Shown in pieces: positions 5,852-10,670 of a stretch of 10,670 nucleotides of DNA; within the stretch, counting starts at the first letter, position 1; each line of letters begins with the position of its first letter. A program made the position numbers and the translations under genes. The notes below the pieces were generated by a model, which was not told the DNA's origin, searched no databases, and saw only the letters and a program-made list of their open reading frames with translations. Source of the stretch: Candidatus Altarchaeales archaeon A3 (GTDB lineage Archaea; Altiarchaeota; Altiarchaeia; Altiarchaeales; Altiarchaeaceae); the NCBI GenBank assembly GCA_002083985.1, contig MTER01000041.1, positions 1-10,670 of the forward strand, written 5' to 3'.

Positions 5852-5993
5852 GTAACTATTCAGAGAGTGCAAAAATTACTAAAAACTGCATGTTTTTAAT
5901 CTTTAAAAATCTATTGGATTTTTAAATTACCTATGAAAATTTCAAAAAAATCAAAAATTTACCTGTAATTTTTTTGGGTGGCTGAATAGTTAC
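5852..5993 (+). mobile_element. MITE-like foldback element, copy B
   Basis: The 142-bp element is bounded by a perfect 12-bp terminal inverted repeat, GTAACTATTCAG / CTGAATAGTTAC. Subterminal AAAAATTAC and GTAATTTTTTT extend the foldback. The centre forms a perfect 10-bp stem (TTTAAAAATC 5902-5911, loop TATTG, GATTTTTAAA 5917-5926). It is non-coding. Flanking 12-mers TAAAATAATTTC (5840-5851) and TAAAATAATTTT (5994-6005) match at 11 of 12, flush with both ends, as a target-site duplication would; the left copy includes the stop codon of the TrmO-like gene. It ends 27 bp before the aspartase ATG, so any promoter for that gene would lie largely inside the element. Confidence 0.8.
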
Positions 5994-6020: not shown

Positions 6021-7418
6021 ATGAAATTCAGGATAGAAAAGGACTCGCTTGGAGAAAAGGAAGTGCCAGGTAATGCATATTATGGAATTCACACAGTTCG
6101 TTCAATTGAAAATTTCCGGATTTCCGGAATTATGATGTATGAGGAGATGATTGAAGCAATTATTTATTTAAAAATTTCCTGTGCAAAGGCAAATCTGGAA
6201 TTAAAAGCGATTGACAAAAGAAAAGGAGATACAATTATCAGGGCATCCGAAGAAATTTTAAAAAATTCCGGGAAATATAAAGCTCAGTTTCAGATTGATA
6301 TTTTTCAGGCTGGCTCCGGAACTTCGCTGAATATGAATGTAAACGAAGTAATTGCAAATCTTGCTGTTGAAATTTTGGAAAACAGAAAGGAAAATTTCGG
6401 AAAGAAAATAATTCATCCGAATGACGATGTGAACAAAGGACAATCAACAAATGATGTGATGCCGAGTGCAATGAAAATTTCTGCTTACCTATTAAGTGAA
6501 AATTTAACCGATGCGATGAAAAATCTGGAAAAGGTGCTTTCCGATAAAGGCAATGAATTTAAGGATATTTTAAAGTCGGGAAGAACACATTTACAGGATG
6601 CAGTCCCGATGACACTCGGACAGGGATTTTATGCATACAGAAGAGCGATTGAGAAAGATATTGAAAGAGTAAATTTTGCCGGAAAATTTTTGGAGGAATT
6701 AGCAATAGGTGGGAATGCTATCGGAACCGGGATAAATACGCCTCCGAAATTCAGGGACTTGACAGTTGAATATTTAAATTTATATTTGTCAAAAAAATTT
6801 ATTCCTGCAAAAAACGGAATTGAGGAAGTGCAATTTTTAACAGATATTGCAAATTTTTCATCTGCGTTAAAGATGCTCGCAATTGACTTGAACAAAATTT
6901 CAAATGATTTACGACTGCTTAACTCGGGGCCTTATACGGGATTTAACGAAATTTTTCTGCCTGCGGTTGAACCCGGTTCATCAATAATGCCTGGAAAAAT
7001 AAATCCTTCAATTTGCGAGGCAATAAATCAGGTCTGCTTTAAGGTTATGGGAAATGATTTGACAATTACGAATTGCTGTGCAGCAGGACAGCTTGAATTG
7101 AACACCTATATGCCTGTAATTGCTTATTCTTTAATTGAATCAATAAAAATTTTAACGAACGGAACAAACATATTTGCAGAAAAGGCAGTTAAAGGAATCA
7201 AAGCAAATGAAGATAAATGTAAATTTTATGTGGAAAATTCGTTGTCTTTGATAACTGCATTAAATCCGGTTCTTGGATATGACAAATGTGCAGAAATCGC
7301 AAAAGAGAGGAGGATGACAAATAAAAGTATTAAGGAGATAATTATTGAAAAAGGATATTTGAGCAAAGAAGAAGTTGAGAAATTTTTGAATGTGAAATTT
7401 TTAACAGGACAAAAATAA
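6021..7418 (+). CDS. aspA: Aspartate ammonia-lyase (aspartase/fumarase superfamily)
   Basis: The protein has 465 residues, as usual for homotetrameric aspartases, which reversibly convert L-aspartate to fumarate and ammonia in the cytoplasm. Superfamily signatures are QSTND (141-145), GRTHLQDAVP (187-196) and the mobile loop GSSIMPGKINP (319-329) with the catalytic-base serine (S320/S321) and Lys326. Features favouring aspartase over class II fumarase are YGIHTVRSIENF near the N-terminus, NKISNDLRLLNSGP (291-304), and INQVCFKVMGND after the loop. Fumarases usually have ANDIRWLASGP and MVCAQVMGND. The MPGK loop itself occurs in both, so some doubt remains about the true substrate. The ATG follows AAATTTTAAA without a Shine-Dalgarno sequence. 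The gene stands alone between two MITE-like copies. Confidence 0.88.
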   Translation: MKFRIEKDSLGEKEVPGNAYYGIHTVRSIENFRISGIMMYEEMIEAIIYLKISCAKANLELKAIDKRKGDTIIRASEEILKNSGKYKAQFQIDIFQAGSGTSLNMNVNEVIANLAVEILENRKENFGKKIIHPNDDVNKGQSTNDVMPSAMKISAYLLSENLTDAMKNLEKVLSDKGNEFKDILKSGRTHLQDAVPMTLGQGFYAYRRAIEKDIERVNFAGKFLEELAIGGNAIGTGINTPPKFRDLTVEYLNLYLSKKFIPAKNGIEEVQFLTDIANFSSALKMLAIDLNKISNDLRLLNSGPYTGFNEIFLPAVEPGSSIMPGKINPSICEAINQVCFKVMGNDLTITNCCAAGQLELNTYMPVIAYSLIESIKILTNGTNIFAEKAVKGIKANEDKCKFYVENSLSLITALNPVLGYDKCAEIAKERRMTNKSIKEIIIEKGYLSKEEVEKFLNVKFLTGQK

Positions 7419-7427
7419 AATAAATTT

Positions 7428-7568
7428 GTAACTATTCAGCCCCCAAAAAATTACAGATAAATTTTTTGTATTTTTTGAAATTTTTAAAGGTAATTTAAAA
7501 ATCCAATAGATTTTTAAAGATTAAAAACCCGCAGTTTTTAGTAATTTTTGTACCATCCGAATAGATAT
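7428..7568 (-). mobile_element. MITE-like foldback element, copy C (inverted relative to B)
   Basis: This 141-bp element reads as the reverse complement of copy B with only scattered differences (roughly 85-90% identity by eye). It keeps the 10-bp stem TTTAAAAATC 7494-7503 / GATTTTTAAA 7509-7518. The left end GTAACTATTCAG is intact; the right end CCGAATAGATAT (7557-7568) has decayed from CTGAATAGTTAC. ATAAATTT (7420-7427) and ATAAATTC (7569-7576) sit flush outside both ends, matching at 7 of 8, as a weak target duplication. It begins 9 nt after the aspartase stop, the same spacing copy B has from its upstream stop. Confidence 0.78.
7462..7485 (+). terminator. Oligo-T terminator candidate inside copy C
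   Basis: Three T-runs (T6 at 7462-7467, T6 at 7471-7476, T5 at 7481-7485) follow the aspartase gene by 44 bp. Archaeal RNA polymerase terminates at such T-tracts. Copies A and B also carry T-runs of six or seven, so the elements may supply terminators to the genes they follow. Confidence 0.4.
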
Positions 7569-7741: not shown

Positions 7742-7763
7742 AAAATGACTGAAGTTTTTAATA

Positions 7764-7773
7764 TTTATATAAC
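7764..7773 (+). promoter_or_regulatory. TATA-like box of the ATPase locus
   Basis: TTTATATAAC lies 87-96 bp upstream of the ATG at 7860. Transcription would be expected about 25 bp downstream, near 7790-7797, where the tandem-repeat array begins. The repeats would then lie at the transcription start and in the mRNA leader. Placement is from sequence only. Confidence 0.4.
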
Positions 7774-7788
7774 AAAACAGAATTAATA

Positions 7789-7851
7789 AAACGAAATCGT
7801 TTCATAACAAAATCGTTTCATAACAAAATCGTTTCATAACAAAATCGTTTC
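7789..7851 (+). repeat. 16-bp tandem repeats between promoter and ATPase start
   Basis: The unit CGTTTCATAACAAAAT occurs three times without change (7798-7813, 7814-7829, 7830-7845), followed by a partial CGTTTC (7846-7851). Just upstream AAACGAAATCGTTT (7789-7802) is a near-palindrome overlapping the first unit. The array ends 8 bp before the ATG. A 16-bp period is about 1.5 helical turns, so neighbouring copies face opposite sides of the helix. Operator, iteron or leader-RNA roles are all possible. There are no spacers, so this is not CRISPR. Confidence 0.85.
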
Positions 7852-7859
7852 AAATAAAA

Positions 7860-9332
7860 ATGCCCCAGTCAGAAGATTTAAAATTAAACTTATCGCCCCT
7901 TAAGGTTCCAAATCCCTTTGGAAGAGCTGGAGAACTAAAAGAAATAGAAAAACATATTTCCAATAATCAGAACTTGATATTATTGGGCCCAAGGAGGGTT
8001 GGAAAAACCACATTGCTAAATGCTATAGAAATAAGAAAAAGTAAAGAATATAACATCGTCAAATATGATTGTCAATCGGATAGAGATATAAGTTCTTTTT
8101 TTGCAAACTTGCTTGTATCTGCAAAGCATCCGAAAATTTTTGTAAGTTCCAAAGGAACAAAATACGAAGGAGAATTTAAAAAAGAAAGAGAAATTGTCGA
8201 AAAAATTATAAAAGAAAATAAATGTAGTCCTTTTCTTATTGAAAATATTGTATGTGGTGATGTAAAAAAAAGTGAAGAAGAGAATATTAAAGATTCCACA
8301 GCATTTCTTTTAATGTTGGGTTATGATGAATTAAGTAATGAAAATGGTGATAAGCCCGTTGTTGAGGAATATAAATTTGCACTACATTATAATATTCCTA
8401 TTTTGTGTATGATTAAAGGAACAGATGATGATAAGAGAAGCAAAGATGTAAAATTGATAATTGGGGATATAATAAATAAAAGAATAGGATTCTACTACCA
8501 GTACAAAAATTTAAAGGAATTAAAAAAAGTTTTAAAAGAGACAATAATAAGAAATAAAGAAAAATGGAATAAAGAAAAAACAATCAATCTCAAAAAGGAG
8601 AAATATAAGGACATAGGTGATATTTTTTTTAATTCTATAAAAGAACAAAAAGATGAGAAATTTTTAATACTTATTGACGAACTTGGGGAGTTAAGGCACG
8701 ATAAAACAATAGATAATTTTGAATCCTTTTTACCCTATTTTGATGCAAAAATTAAGGAAACAGATGTAAAAAATTCTACATTTGTAATTACAGGTTCTGA
8801 AAATATATTTACCACTTCTTATCAAAAATACTTTAGCTCGTTTTGGCCCATAGATATAGATGTTTTCAATGAAGAAACGGCAAAAAATTTTATAAGGTGT
8901 GTTTTGAAATTGAATAATGAGGATAAATATTTTGATAAAATTATTAGTGTGTGGGGAACCCTCCCTAAAGATTTAGTATCACTATATTACGAATTAAGCG
9001 AGAAAGAAGTAAACAATGAAAAAATAAAAGATGCTCTTATATCAGTCATAAAAAAACCCGAATTTAACTTGGAAGGACAATATCCTTATCTTGAAAAGGA
9101 AGATATTACCTGTCTTAAAAATATATCCCAATACCTTCCAGCTTCAGAGAATGAACTTAAACCTTATGTTTCTTCTGAAATTTTTGGAAGGGTATCAAGA
9201 GAGCAATTTATATTGAAAGAAAATAATGGAAAATACCATTTTGTATCGAAGTTGTTTTGGTGGGGGATAATGTATGACTTTGACAGGAAAATTTTTGAAA
9301 ATTTTTTAAAGAACATATTAGAAAATGGCTGA
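7860..9332 (+). CDS. AAA ATPase with an inserted DUF4062-like domain
   Basis: The 490-residue protein opens as an archaeal-type ATPase: NPFGRAGEL (18-26), then Walker A GPRRVGKTT (43-51) and a second strand (IVKYDCQS). Residues about 91-230 interrupt the ATPase with a domain having DUF4062 marks: KIFVSS (92-97), a KEREIVEKII helix (108-117), FLLMLGYDE (149-157), and EEYKFALHYNIPILCMIKG (169-187). The ATPase resumes with Walker B FLILIDELGEL (268-278), a sensor-like STFVITGSENI (306-316), and the FWPIDIDVFNEETA segment (328-341). The C-terminal ~85 residues look like a winged helix. DUF4062 is a Rossmann-like domain often attached to STAND-type NTPases. A conflict or defence role, with DUF4062 as effector or signalling part, is inference. 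The next gene overlaps it by 8 bp. No Shine-Dalgarno sequence precedes the ATG. Confidence 0.82.
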   Translation: MPQSEDLKLNLSPLKVPNPFGRAGELKEIEKHISNNQNLILLGPRRVGKTTLLNAIEIRKSKEYNIVKYDCQSDRDISSFFANLLVSAKHPKIFVSSKGTKYEGEFKKEREIVEKIIKENKCSPFLIENIVCGDVKKSEEENIKDSTAFLLMLGYDELSNENGDKPVVEEYKFALHYNIPILCMIKGTDDDKRSKDVKLIIGDIINKRIGFYYQYKNLKELKKVLKETIIRNKEKWNKEKTINLKKEKYKDIGDIFFNSIKEQKDEKFLILIDELGELRHDKTIDNFESFLPYFDAKIKETDVKNSTFVITGSENIFTTSYQKYFSSFWPIDIDVFNEETAKNFIRCVLKLNNEDKYFDKIISVWGTLPKDLVSLYYELSEKEVNNEKIKDALISVIKKPEFNLEGQYPYLEKEDITCLKNISQYLPASENELKPYVSSEIFGRVSREQFILKENNGKYHFVSKLFWWGIMYDFDRKIFENFLKNILENG

Positions 9333-10437
9333 AAAATTGATTGATAGATTGCAGGAGATATTGAAATCAGAAAGAACAACAAAAGAAGATGTTACTTTTC
9401 AAAAAGAAAGAATTTCCTACCAAATATTTAAAAATAATAATAAAGATGTGTTTGAAAATATAAAAAAATCATCCGGAGAGCAAATTATTTACTTATTGTA
9501 CGGAAAAGAGCATTCGGGAAAAACTACTATCCTTAGAAATCTGTATGTAAATTGCCCTACTGAAAAATGTGAATTTATAGAGGGCAAAAACATTTTTGTT
9601 TCAAGAGAATTTTTTTATAGAATCGGAATAGAAATAAAAGAAGGAGAGGATTACAAGTCCGCGGCAAAGATTTATTTTATGAATTTTGGTAAAATTTTAT
9701 TTATTGATGACTTTGACAAGATGCTTGCGAATTTGGGCGAGGATTTTGCCGCATATTTAAGAGCAACAATACAGGAATTTAGAATCAATATTATAAGCAC
9801 CGCGACATTAGGAAGCAACGAATTTAACAAATATTTTTTAAGATATGATACTCCTTTTTACAGGTTTTTTTTGTTTAAGCCGGTTGAATACCAAAGTAAA
9901 GATATAAAAGAAATAAATATAATTTTTCAAAAGGAAATAAAAGAGGAGGATATTAACTTAATCATAGAAAATGCTAATGACAATATAAAAGCGATAATCT
10001 CTGTAATAGAAGATTATAACGGCAATATATCTGTTGCTATTCAGAGTGCAATTATAAAAAATAGTTCTATTATTGCTTATTTAATTCAAAATTTGACACC
10101 TCAACAAAAAGTAATAATTGGGTATGTGAGTAAATATATAATTCAAAAAGAAAAAGAGAATGAAGGTGTGAAATTAAATGACCTTGCAAAATATTTATTT
10201 CAAAGTGATGATGTATTAAGGACACAAATAAACAGAATAATGAAAAATGGCTTGATAAAAAAACTGAAAAAAGAAAAAACTTTCCTCCCAAATATATTCC
10301 TTTTAGAAGAAAAGAAGATGGAAGAAGGAAAATCACACTTAATGATAGCAATAAAATTTCAAAACGATAAAAGATATGATGAAGCGGAGAAGGAATTTAG
10401 AGAAGCAATAAGGATAAATCCAAATTATGGCACATAA
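9325..10437 (+). CDS. P-loop ATPase with winged helix and first TPR; ends at a frame break
   Basis: The frame encodes 370 residues. An N-terminal helical part leads to Walker A GKEHSGKTT (60-68) and Walker B ILFIDDFDK (124-132), followed by a sensor-like NIISTATLGSNEF (155-167). Residues about 255-325 look like a winged helix (DLAKYLFQ...TQINRIMKNGLIKKL). A tetratricopeptide repeat starts near 336 (YDEAEKEFREAIRINPNY) and is cut by a TAA at 10435-10437. The order P-loop, winged helix, TPR is that of STAND-type signal-sensing ATPases, where the repeat region recognises the trigger. The ATG overlaps the upstream ATPase by 8 bp, implying coupled translation and a shared complex. TPR coding resumes at once in another frame, so this is either a frameshifted single gene or one half of a split gene. 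Confidence 0.8.
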   Translation: MAEKLIDRLQEILKSERTTKEDVTFQKERISYQIFKNNNKDVFENIKKSSGEQIIYLLYGKEHSGKTTILRNLYVNCPTEKCEFIEGKNIFVSREFFYRIGIEIKEGEDYKSAAKIYFMNFGKILFIDDFDKMLANLGEDFAAYLRATIQEFRINIISTATLGSNEFNKYFLRYDTPFYRFFLFKPVEYQSKDIKEINIIFQKEIKEEDINLIIENANDNIKAIISVIEDYNGNISVAIQSAIIKNSSIIAYLIQNLTPQQKVIIGYVSKYIIQKEKENEGVKLNDLAKYLFQSDDVLRTQINRIMKNGLIKKLKKEKTFLPNIFLLEEKKMEEGKSHLMIAIKFQNDKRYDEAEKEFREAIRINPNYGT

Positions 10438-10670
10438 TAATTTAGGAGTTTTATTGCATGATTTAAAACACTATGAAGAAGCAGAGAAAGAATTTAGGGA
10501 AGCAATAAGAATAAATCCATATGATGCTAAAGCACATTATAATTTAGGAGTTTTATTGTATGATTTAAAACGCTATGAAGAAGCAGAGAAAGAATATAGG
10601 GAAGCAATAAGAATAAATCCATATGATGCTAAAGCACATAATAATTTAGGAGTTTTATTGTATGATTTAA
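10427..10670 (+). CDS. TPR array protein, partial at window end (restart or frameshifted continuation)
   Basis: An ATG at 10427 opens a frame that runs to the window end, overlapping the ATPase stop by 11 bp. It reads MAHNNLGVLLHDLKHYEEAE and continues through two full 34-residue tetratricopeptide repeats and part of a third, each with the NLGVLL, YEEAEKE and AIRINP marks. Compared with the unit boundary GCTAAAGCA found in later copies, the first junction reads GGCA. That is a 5-base deficit, and it accounts for the shift away from the upstream frame. The natural reading is one ATPase-TPR protein broken here, or a deliberately separate repeat subunit made by reinitiation. A GGAT 15-18 bp upstream is at most a weak ribosome site. 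Confidence 0.7.
   Translation, partial: MAHNNLGVLLHDLKHYEEAEKEFREAIRINPYDAKAHYNLGVLLYDLKRYEEAEKEYREAIRINPYDAKAHNNLGVLLYDL
10430..10670 (+). repeat. Near-identical 102-bp TPR-encoding repeats
   Basis: Units begin at 10430, 10532 and 10634 (partial), each starting GCACAT(A/T)ATAATTTAGG. The first two differ at 4 of 102 positions (about 96% identical). The single TPR upstream in the ATPase frame is clearly more diverged at DNA level. This homogeneity implies recent expansion or gene conversion, and the array continues beyond the window. Confidence 0.9.

Follow-up and report, generated by a model that had tools for sequence, protein, structure and literature searches.

What is the function of two overlapping P-loop ATPase genes, here called A and B, that are preceded by short repeats and run into a repeat array at the end of a contig of Candidatus Altarchaeales archaeon A3? 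This whole contig (C41, MTER01000041.1; 10,670 bp) was analysed and is referred to as the window. It belongs to a metagenome-assembled genome (G000, 65% complete), and its end limits downstream reading; a first-pass annotation of the sequence had already stated that the locus runs off the window. The same annotation proposed a conflict-type module with repeat-based sensing. Our results support such a module, in which sensing by the repeats is a predicted property, and we consider it rather probable that A and B work together as an NLR-like immune switch of two components, with a NADase effector in A.

The locus was compared within four genomes of Candidatus Altarchaeum (also written Altiarchaeum; G000 to G003, with the window in G000) and within a class set that adds 25 other genomes of the same class. 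Full A and full B were each found seven times, adjacent in all seven cases and present in all four genomes of the genus. The pairs lie on contigs C41 (the window), C184, C153, G001 C23, G002 C213, G003 C88, and G003 C102, the last being identical to L022 (JAGWDQ010000102, Candidatus Altarchaeum sp. isolate HURL_140). The first-pass annotation had correctly recognized two overlapping genes encoding P-loop ATPases. Both genes lie on the plus strand, both carry Walker motifs, and they overlap by 8 nt. Of the junctions in the other pairs, four are overlaps (8, 8, 29, and 32 nt) and two are gaps (1 and 85 nt), as judged by the listed open reading frame (ORF) starts. The two ATPases, described there as different, are indeed separate proteins but related to each other: profile comparison with hhalign aligned them from the region before Walker B to the C-terminal part (probability 93.8, E 1.7e-7). 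Moreover, the distances among A and among B co-diverge (r = 0.946; with the true order counted, 3 of 5,040 permutations gave a correlation at least this strong), with pairwise identities of A as low as 38%. We observed neither a lack of DUF4062 nor unrelated ATPases that do not co-occur, both of which had been named as grounds for abandoning the module, and the suggested split of functions over two co-occurring ATPases applies to all seven loci.

None of the 25 other genomes in the class set contained a full pair; the matches there were partial ATPase matches and, in one genome (G026), separate DUF4062 matches. Among 61 relatives, the only match outside the genus was one weak P-loop match. In 115 genomes of another archaeal phylum, no A was detected at E<=1e-12 with the profile that recovers all seven copies within the genus, and a public-genome scan for A returned at least one relative (L022). 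A circular form of G003 C102 (4,260 bp, TPR sequence at both ends) was considered, but no exact terminal overlap of 15-300 nt was found; tandem pairs and another TPR gene upstream are equally possible explanations for this contig.

A DUF4062-like domain in the ATPase of gene A

The window copy of A matches ATPase_2 (PF01637, E 8e-13) and AAA_14 (PF13173, E 7e-9), both above the Pfam cut-off; at E<=0.1, ATPase_2 was found in five of the seven A copies and AAA_14 in all of them. The match of the window copy to DUF4062 (PF13271) is weak (E 0.015; 15.9 bits, with a cut-off of 24.7). DUF4062 was matched in all seven A homologues at E<=0.1 (best E 2.9e-8), and a genome search placed it above the cut-off in five of the seven pairs, one of these only with neighbours counted, and the window copy below. 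When a profile of the seven sequences was compared to four plain DUF4062 domains, residues 91-231 aligned with a probability of 98.1 (E 1.3e-13). Direct profile comparison of A to two TIR domains was not significant (probability 1.6, E 0.032), and A was therefore filed as a DUF4062 and not as a TIR protein.

The DUF4062-like domain of the first-pass annotation thus withstood profile comparison, but it does not lie beside the ATPase. Among the loci examined, ten ORFs besides A matched the A profile, seven of them in two blocks and three (L029, L033, L034) significantly in the first block only. The seven two-block relatives (389-417 amino acids; six belong to other families of the class, and L100 to the genus) align around A residues 3-76 and 230-470. 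Their blocks are separated by 54-103 residues compared to 159-195 in A, a surplus of 92-105 residues per comparison. The same two blocks were found with the solved structure 2qen, with 77 residues between them compared to 205 in A, that is, 128 extra residues. Since A matches in two blocks with extra residues between them, we conclude from these alignments that DUF4062 is nested inside an archaeal ATPase, as a TIR-like insertion that separates the part with Walker A from the part with Walker B. This nested insertion had been missed before. The archaeal ATPase_2 core itself is present with both halves and Walker A and B; A shares it with the PF01637 family and differs by the inserted residues. 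AlphaFold models of A and B, for which the alignment consisted of the window and L022 sequences only, reached mean pLDDT values of 37.8 and 32.8, respectively, too low for use.

Within the nested domain, Glu170 of A aligns with a Glu column that is invariant in the four plain DUF4062 domains (hhalign). By this alignment, made to plain domains rather than to the two proteins themselves, Glu170 would be equivalent to E97 of KpSwz and E1008 of TEP1. The part of a 2026 preprint available to us (PMC13174449) describes DUF4062 as a TIR-like NADase. According to this part, the bacterial Swarozyc protein KpSwz acts against phages by Glu-dependent NAD+ depletion once the phage portal binds its auxiliary domain, and human TEP1 is active in NAD+ hydrolysis whereas NWD1, NWD2, and NPHP3 are inactive in the same assay; in these four human proteins the domain adjoins a NACHT ATPase. 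The experiments described there concern bacterial and human proteins, and archaea appear in a figure legend only. Based on the reported NADase activity, an effector is probably present in A, and the earlier statement that no effector is visible can no longer be upheld.

Alternatively, DUF4062 could be a non-catalytic assembly part, as perhaps in NWD1 and NPHP3, and the output of the switch could come from another protein or from the ATPases themselves. The domain can be inactive, because NWD1, NWD2, and NPHP3 carry it and yet only TEP1 was active (same part of PMC13174449); this counts against a NADase in A, as does the divergence of the window copy below the Pfam cut-off. Nevertheless, Glu170 has remained invariant in all seven copies despite the low identity of A, and a true TIR domain occupies the same chromosomal site in a relative, as described below. 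We therefore regard a purely structural role of the domain as unlikely and maintain the NADase effector as the preferred reading.

Exchange with a TIR gene at a variable chromosomal site

The left flank of the pair is formed by a fumarase-like lyase that is 84-90% identical in three relatives. The gene to the right of the site presumably encodes an Lrp-type regulator, judging by its sequence. Between these two genes, the four genomes differ. The site is empty in G001, with 82 nt from the lyase stop to the Lrp-type gene, and G002 has 406 nt followed by the regulator, without A, B, or a TPR gene. G003 carries leader repeats, a TIR-TPR gene, and then the regulator; the window carries leader repeats, A, and B. 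The G003 protein (C137; L096:4476-6005) combines a TIR_2 domain (2.1e-19) with about nine TPRs. This TIR-TPR allele lies outside the window and was not part of the first-pass annotation. When DNA matches of 120 nt or longer are considered, similarity between the window and the G003 site extends to position 7414 and resumes only at 10356, in the TPR array, which is 82-85% identical to the array of the TIR-TPR gene. The stretch from lyase to array differs except for leader repeats of the same kind. By this comparison, the effector part has been replaced, whereas the arrays are homologous.

Contig C78 probably represents the right-hand side of the window's site; the two contigs do not overlap, and we infer the join from their sequences. 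Within G000, a close copy of the regulator is found on C78 alone; the one other match has 30% identity (E 1.8e-4). On C78, TPR sequence with up to 93% identity to that of the window stands ahead of the regulator, and the gene after the regulator is the same as in G002. Furthermore, C78 and G003 match in the array, slightly beyond it, and in the regulator. At a second site, next to a gene that we take to be ribB-like from its sequence, G002 harbors a broken TIR-TPR gene and G003 a TIR-like ORF with TPRs. Hence, the window's pair is an accessory element at a swappable chromosomal site, which suggests an NLR-like immune switch of modular build, in which one TIR-family effector can take the place of another. 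The site offers a natural swap, with a DUF4062-ATPase core and a true TIR domain placed before homologous TPR arrays, and thereby makes both the portability of the sensor array between NADase effectors and the switching of a split NLR directly testable.

Empty, swapped, and occupied sites would also be expected of a selfish or addictive toxin-like gene pair that spreads between chromosomal sites and does not serve host immunity. Such a pair could likewise account for leader-type repeats on the far side of a TPR gene at three loci, a PemK toxin gene on some contigs, and genes for PIN, HTH-protease, and transposase proteins on some contigs, the latter recognized by sequence reading only. But no recombinase or antitoxin was seen to travel with the pair, and a TPR family common to TIR, STAND, and other fusions is more readily explained by sensing than by addiction. 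We consider this explanation distinctly unlikely compared to the proposed immune switch.

Gene B, its repeat array and the leader repeats

The annotated domain order of B, P-loop, winged helix, and TPR, was recovered at both ends. The P-loop and Walker B are present, with PF00004 (AAA) just below the cut-off (20.2 compared to 21.2 bits). The end of B matches TPR_2 below the cut-off (E 1.4e-4), and the continuing frame (10427-10669) matches TPR families strongly (TPR_1, 6.6e-22), so that the 34-residue TPR motif stands in tandem at the end of B and in the continuing frame. The winged helix matched no Pfam family and is a probable feature by the look of the sequence. The homogeneity of the array and the repeat-rich leader were both verified by TRF, with a period of 102 nt, 2.8 copies, and 92% matches for the array (10394-10670) and a period of 16 nt, 3.9 copies, and 97% for the leader.

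The reading frame of B is one of the points against the proposed switch. In the window, B has a stop at 10435-10437 inside the first TPR and the array continues in a different frame, a break that had gone unnoticed. The frame ends in or just after the first TPR in three of the seven pairs (C41, C184, and G001 C23, the last with its stop 10 nt before the contig end), and on C153 six TPR motifs precede the stop, a separate piece of TPR sequence lying about 500 nt further along. B is cut by N in G002 C213, and in the two G003 pairs (C88 and C102) its frame stays open until the contig ends, so a complete end of B was read in none of the seven pairs. The three early breaks (window 10427-10437, L017:2703-2719, and L018:7277-7279) differ in their length changes; C41 has a TPR unit spacing of 97 nt and C184 one of 103 nt, compared to the normal 102. 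Assembly error, decay, and a real frame change or phase variation are possible causes. Since the interruption recurs at one position on three contigs from two genomes, phase variation comes into consideration, and if these breaks are real, the sensor may be phase-variable.

We take seriously, without favoring it, the explanation that the window's copy of B is decayed or mis-assembled within a family that is itself real, which would be compatible with an immune switch for the family. The early stops in C41, C184, and G001 C23 agree with it, as do the stop on C153 and a further frame change on C78. The arrays that stay open to the contig end in both G003 pairs argue against it, as does the position of the breaks: they lie at the edges of arrays and at the end of a contig, places where the assembly of near-identical repeats from short reads often breaks down.

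TPR arrays related to that of the window occur throughout the genus behind different partners, namely behind TIR domains (C137, C35, and, in a broken gene, C193), an AAA plus nSTAND5 protein (C92), lipoprotein-like starts, and B. For the TPR fusion on C129, no non-TPR family was found in the N-terminus among the 25 best of 29 Pfam rows. The window's array is 74-93% identical to other arrays at the DNA level, compared to 63-72% for the A-B core and the other pairs where they match. The comparison of single 102-nt units is less clear, in part as a result of counting frame-shifted and edge units; identities were 0.64-0.96 within arrays and 0.65-0.88 between them. Other members of this repeat family include TPR proteins with a lipoprotein-like N-terminus, a hydrophobic stretch followed by SGC (L134:3736-6339, with 19 repeat motifs counted; L137:3190-4176; L144:2832-3308). 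An 8.8-kb contig (L142, G000:C28) contains eight ORFs with TPR motifs on a single strand. By sequence reading, L103:4078-5559 (G001:C59) seemingly encodes two tandem TIR-like copies followed by another domain.

The leader motif AACR-N4-YGTT is present in 1-6 copies in the 150 nt (C184: 129 nt) upstream of all seven A genes and of the C137 TIR-TPR gene, mostly with a period of 15-16 nt; single-base shuffling, a crude control, gave an expectation of 0.01 or less. A stricter two-unit pattern was found at 16 loci in the four genomes, compared to none for a reversed control pattern. Seven of these loci precede A (within 500 nt), one precedes the TIR-TPR gene, three lie just after a TPR gene, and five elsewhere. 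The exact leader pair of the window was not found elsewhere in G000 at up to three mismatches, and the family is visible only with the looser pattern. In the window, a TATA-like stretch precedes the leader and the start codon follows it, an arrangement that suits an operator; the probable role of the repeats here is transcriptional control of the pair. For the copies behind TPR genes, a role in recombination would be just as plausible. We rejected a CRISPR-like array (the period is 16 nt and there are no spacers) and an RNA family (no Rfam match in the window). On contig G003:C119, a gene for an ATPase_2-HTH-Mrr nuclease (L095:3612-5210) is located behind a leader-type cluster that follows the end of a TPR gene, and may be a further member of the same sites.

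The proposed switch and its relation to known systems

We propose that B senses an invader product through its TPR array and that the two related ATPases then contact each other and assemble, driven by ATP. Assembly would bring the DUF4062 domains nested in A together. The clustered domains would hydrolyse NAD+ and stop the infected cell, as stated for bacterial DUF4062 in the available part of the preprint (PMC13174449), and the leader repeats would hold the pair under transcriptional control. We infer NAD hydrolysis, ATP dependence, the contact between A and B, the trigger, and the antiviral outcome. Given the reported NADase activity of DUF4062 and the TIR exchange at the same site, a split NLR is the most likely mechanism. 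The pair adds an archaeal DUF4062 case with a different geometry, in which the probable effector is nested in one ATPase and the sensor is carried by its partner. According to the section consulted (PMC8324899), lytic viruses are known to attack Ca. Altiarchaeum in the subsurface; selective pressure for such systems therefore exists.

A wider hypothesis is possible, although we would rather doubt it than rely on it. The genus may own a combinatorial repertoire in which a pool of recombining 102-bp TPR cassettes, shared operator-like leaders, and interchangeable TIR-family effectors (a TIR domain, or a DUF4062 ATPase licensed by a second ATPase) are exchanged at fixed sites. The pair would then be an archaeal split NLR whose NADase is caged in an ATPase fold and freed by ATP-driven hetero-assembly.

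Besides the frame breaks, several observations weigh against an immune role. The expected enrichment in defence islands was not borne out: no island was recognizable around the pairs at seven loci read by ORF, with few neighbours family-searched and several contigs short. Where neighbours could be read, the pairs stand singly beside mostly housekeeping-type genes, among them genes that we take from their sequences to encode DNA polymerase DP2 and TyrA. Neither the 50,697 phage records nor the 72,556 plasmid records contained a match to A (only A was searched), and pattern scans found neither A nor B in IMG/VR. Leader-type repeats stand without a visible pair or TPR gene beside them at 5 of the 16 loci and behind a TPR gene at 3 of 16, and the leader array is absent in the 260 nt upstream of the C35 TIR-TPR gene and of the C92, C129, and C53 TPR fusions. 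Finally, no PADLOC match was named Avs and none was strong, in a library that shows no cut-offs. The best matches of A were PDC-S01 (E 1.4e-7), which covers 50 residues around the P-loop, and mad8 (E 1.1e-4, residues 25-281), and that of B was mad8 (E 6.6e-4).

The housekeeping neighbours, and the many TPR proteins of the genus, some with lipoprotein-like starts, could also mean that A and B are an ordinary regulatory or scaffold TPR-ATPase pair without a role in conflict. A consistent housekeeping context had been named by the first-pass annotation as a reason to reject the module. Such a context was indeed found, but the window's pair is accessory, and because its site is empty or swapped in relatives, we read the neighbours as a sign of hotspot insertion and not of housekeeping function. 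The TIR exchange at the same site and the divergence of A (copies 38-50% identical to the window's A, compared to 84-90% for the flanking lyase) likewise contradict an ordinary pair, which we hold to be improbable, slightly more so than a selfish one.

The immune switch that we favor consists of known parts. With Swarozyc, it shares a DUF4062 with a conserved Glu position and a probable NAD+ depletion effector. KpSwz, however, is a single protein with a C-terminal HTH/winged auxiliary domain that binds the phage portal, whereas the archaeal domain is nested in a P-loop ATPase with an ATPase-TPR partner; the Swarozyc architecture is thus not found here. Human TEP1, NWD1, NWD2, and NPHP3 contain the same parts, DUF4062 and a STAND-like NTPase (plus TPRs, in NPHP3 deduced from the Pfam family name TPR_NPHP3), but in line on a single chain, compared to two genes and a DUF4062 inside the ATPase in the window. 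Avs and other prokaryotic NLR-like proteins have a STAND-type NTPase, a C-terminal repeat sensor, and a separate effector domain; they differ in being single proteins with the effector at the N-terminus. The G003 TIR-TPR protein shares the chromosomal site, the kind of leader repeats, and a homologous TPR array with the pair, but has a true TIR domain fused directly to the TPRs and no ATPase.

The contrast to a single-chain form, drawn in the first-pass annotation, has a counterpart in the class itself. L101:3038-6142 (G026:C256, another family of the class) encodes a DUF4062-AAA-TPR protein of 1,035 amino acids with the same three parts, NPHP3-like in parts. It differs from the pair by being one gene with an N-terminal DUF4062, an AAA_16-like NTPase just under the cut-off, and TPR_10/TPR_12 as best TPR families. 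A description of the A-B pair was not found in the open-licence literature, the scope of our search, with subscription papers outside it; the same holds for the nested DUF4062, the split into two ATPases, and the TIR exchange on one TPR family. DUF4062-type N-termini also occur on another kind of protein (L042:1346-2839, L041:3149-4597, and L043:118-2367), and the L042 and L043 genes lie near glycosyltransferase-like and sugar-nucleotide-like genes by sequence reading.

Table 1. Positions of the pair and its surroundings in the window
Feature	Position	Strand	Basis
Gene A: archaeal ATPase_2-type P-loop ATPase with nested DUF4062, 490 amino acids	7860..9332	+	Pfam; 7 copies, 4 genomes
Walker A of A: residues 43-50, GPRRVGKT	7986..8009	+	G43, G48, K49, T50 invariant in 7/7
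Nested DUF4062 (TIR-like) domain, residues 92-231	8133..8552	+	Pfam, hhalign, two-block matches
Glu170, presumed position of TIR-like catalytic Glu	8367..8369	+	invariant in 7/7; alignment to plain DUF4062 domains
Walker B of A: residues 268-275, FLILIDEL	8661..8684	+	I272, D273, E274 invariant in 7/7
Overlap of A stop and B start, 8 nt	9325..9332	+	putative translational coupling
Gene B: second P-loop ATPase, probable winged helix, first TPR; 370 amino acids	9325..10437	+	frame ends within first TPR
Walker A of B: residues 60-67, GKEHSGKT	9502..9525	+	G60, G65, K66, T67 invariant in 7/7
Walker B of B: residues 124-131, ILFIDDFD	9694..9717	+	first Asp is Ala in 1/7
TPR array, 102-nt period	10375..10670	+	frame change at about 10427-10437; extends off contig
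Leader array: four 16-nt units AACRnnnnYGTTTCAW with inner dyad	7790..7853	+	TRF, pattern search
TATA-like stretch, upstream of leader array	about 7763-7772		read from sequence
Fumarase-like lyase, left flank of variable site	6021..7418	+	Pfam; 84-90% identical in three relatives

On the contig of the C184 pair, two adjacent minus-strand ORFs (L017:7010-9122) resemble parts of a transposase by sequence reading. Short elements resembling miniature inverted-repeat transposable elements, bounded by GTAACTATTCAG and its reverse complement or a variant, are present at window positions 5852-5993 and 7428-7567 and at L017:3431-3521. The two copies in the window are 89% complementary over 108 nt, and one of them sits between the lyase and the leader array. 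Finally, a 36-nt tandem repeat (2.7 copies) was found at 1304-1401 in a charged, coiled-coil-like ORF of unassigned function.

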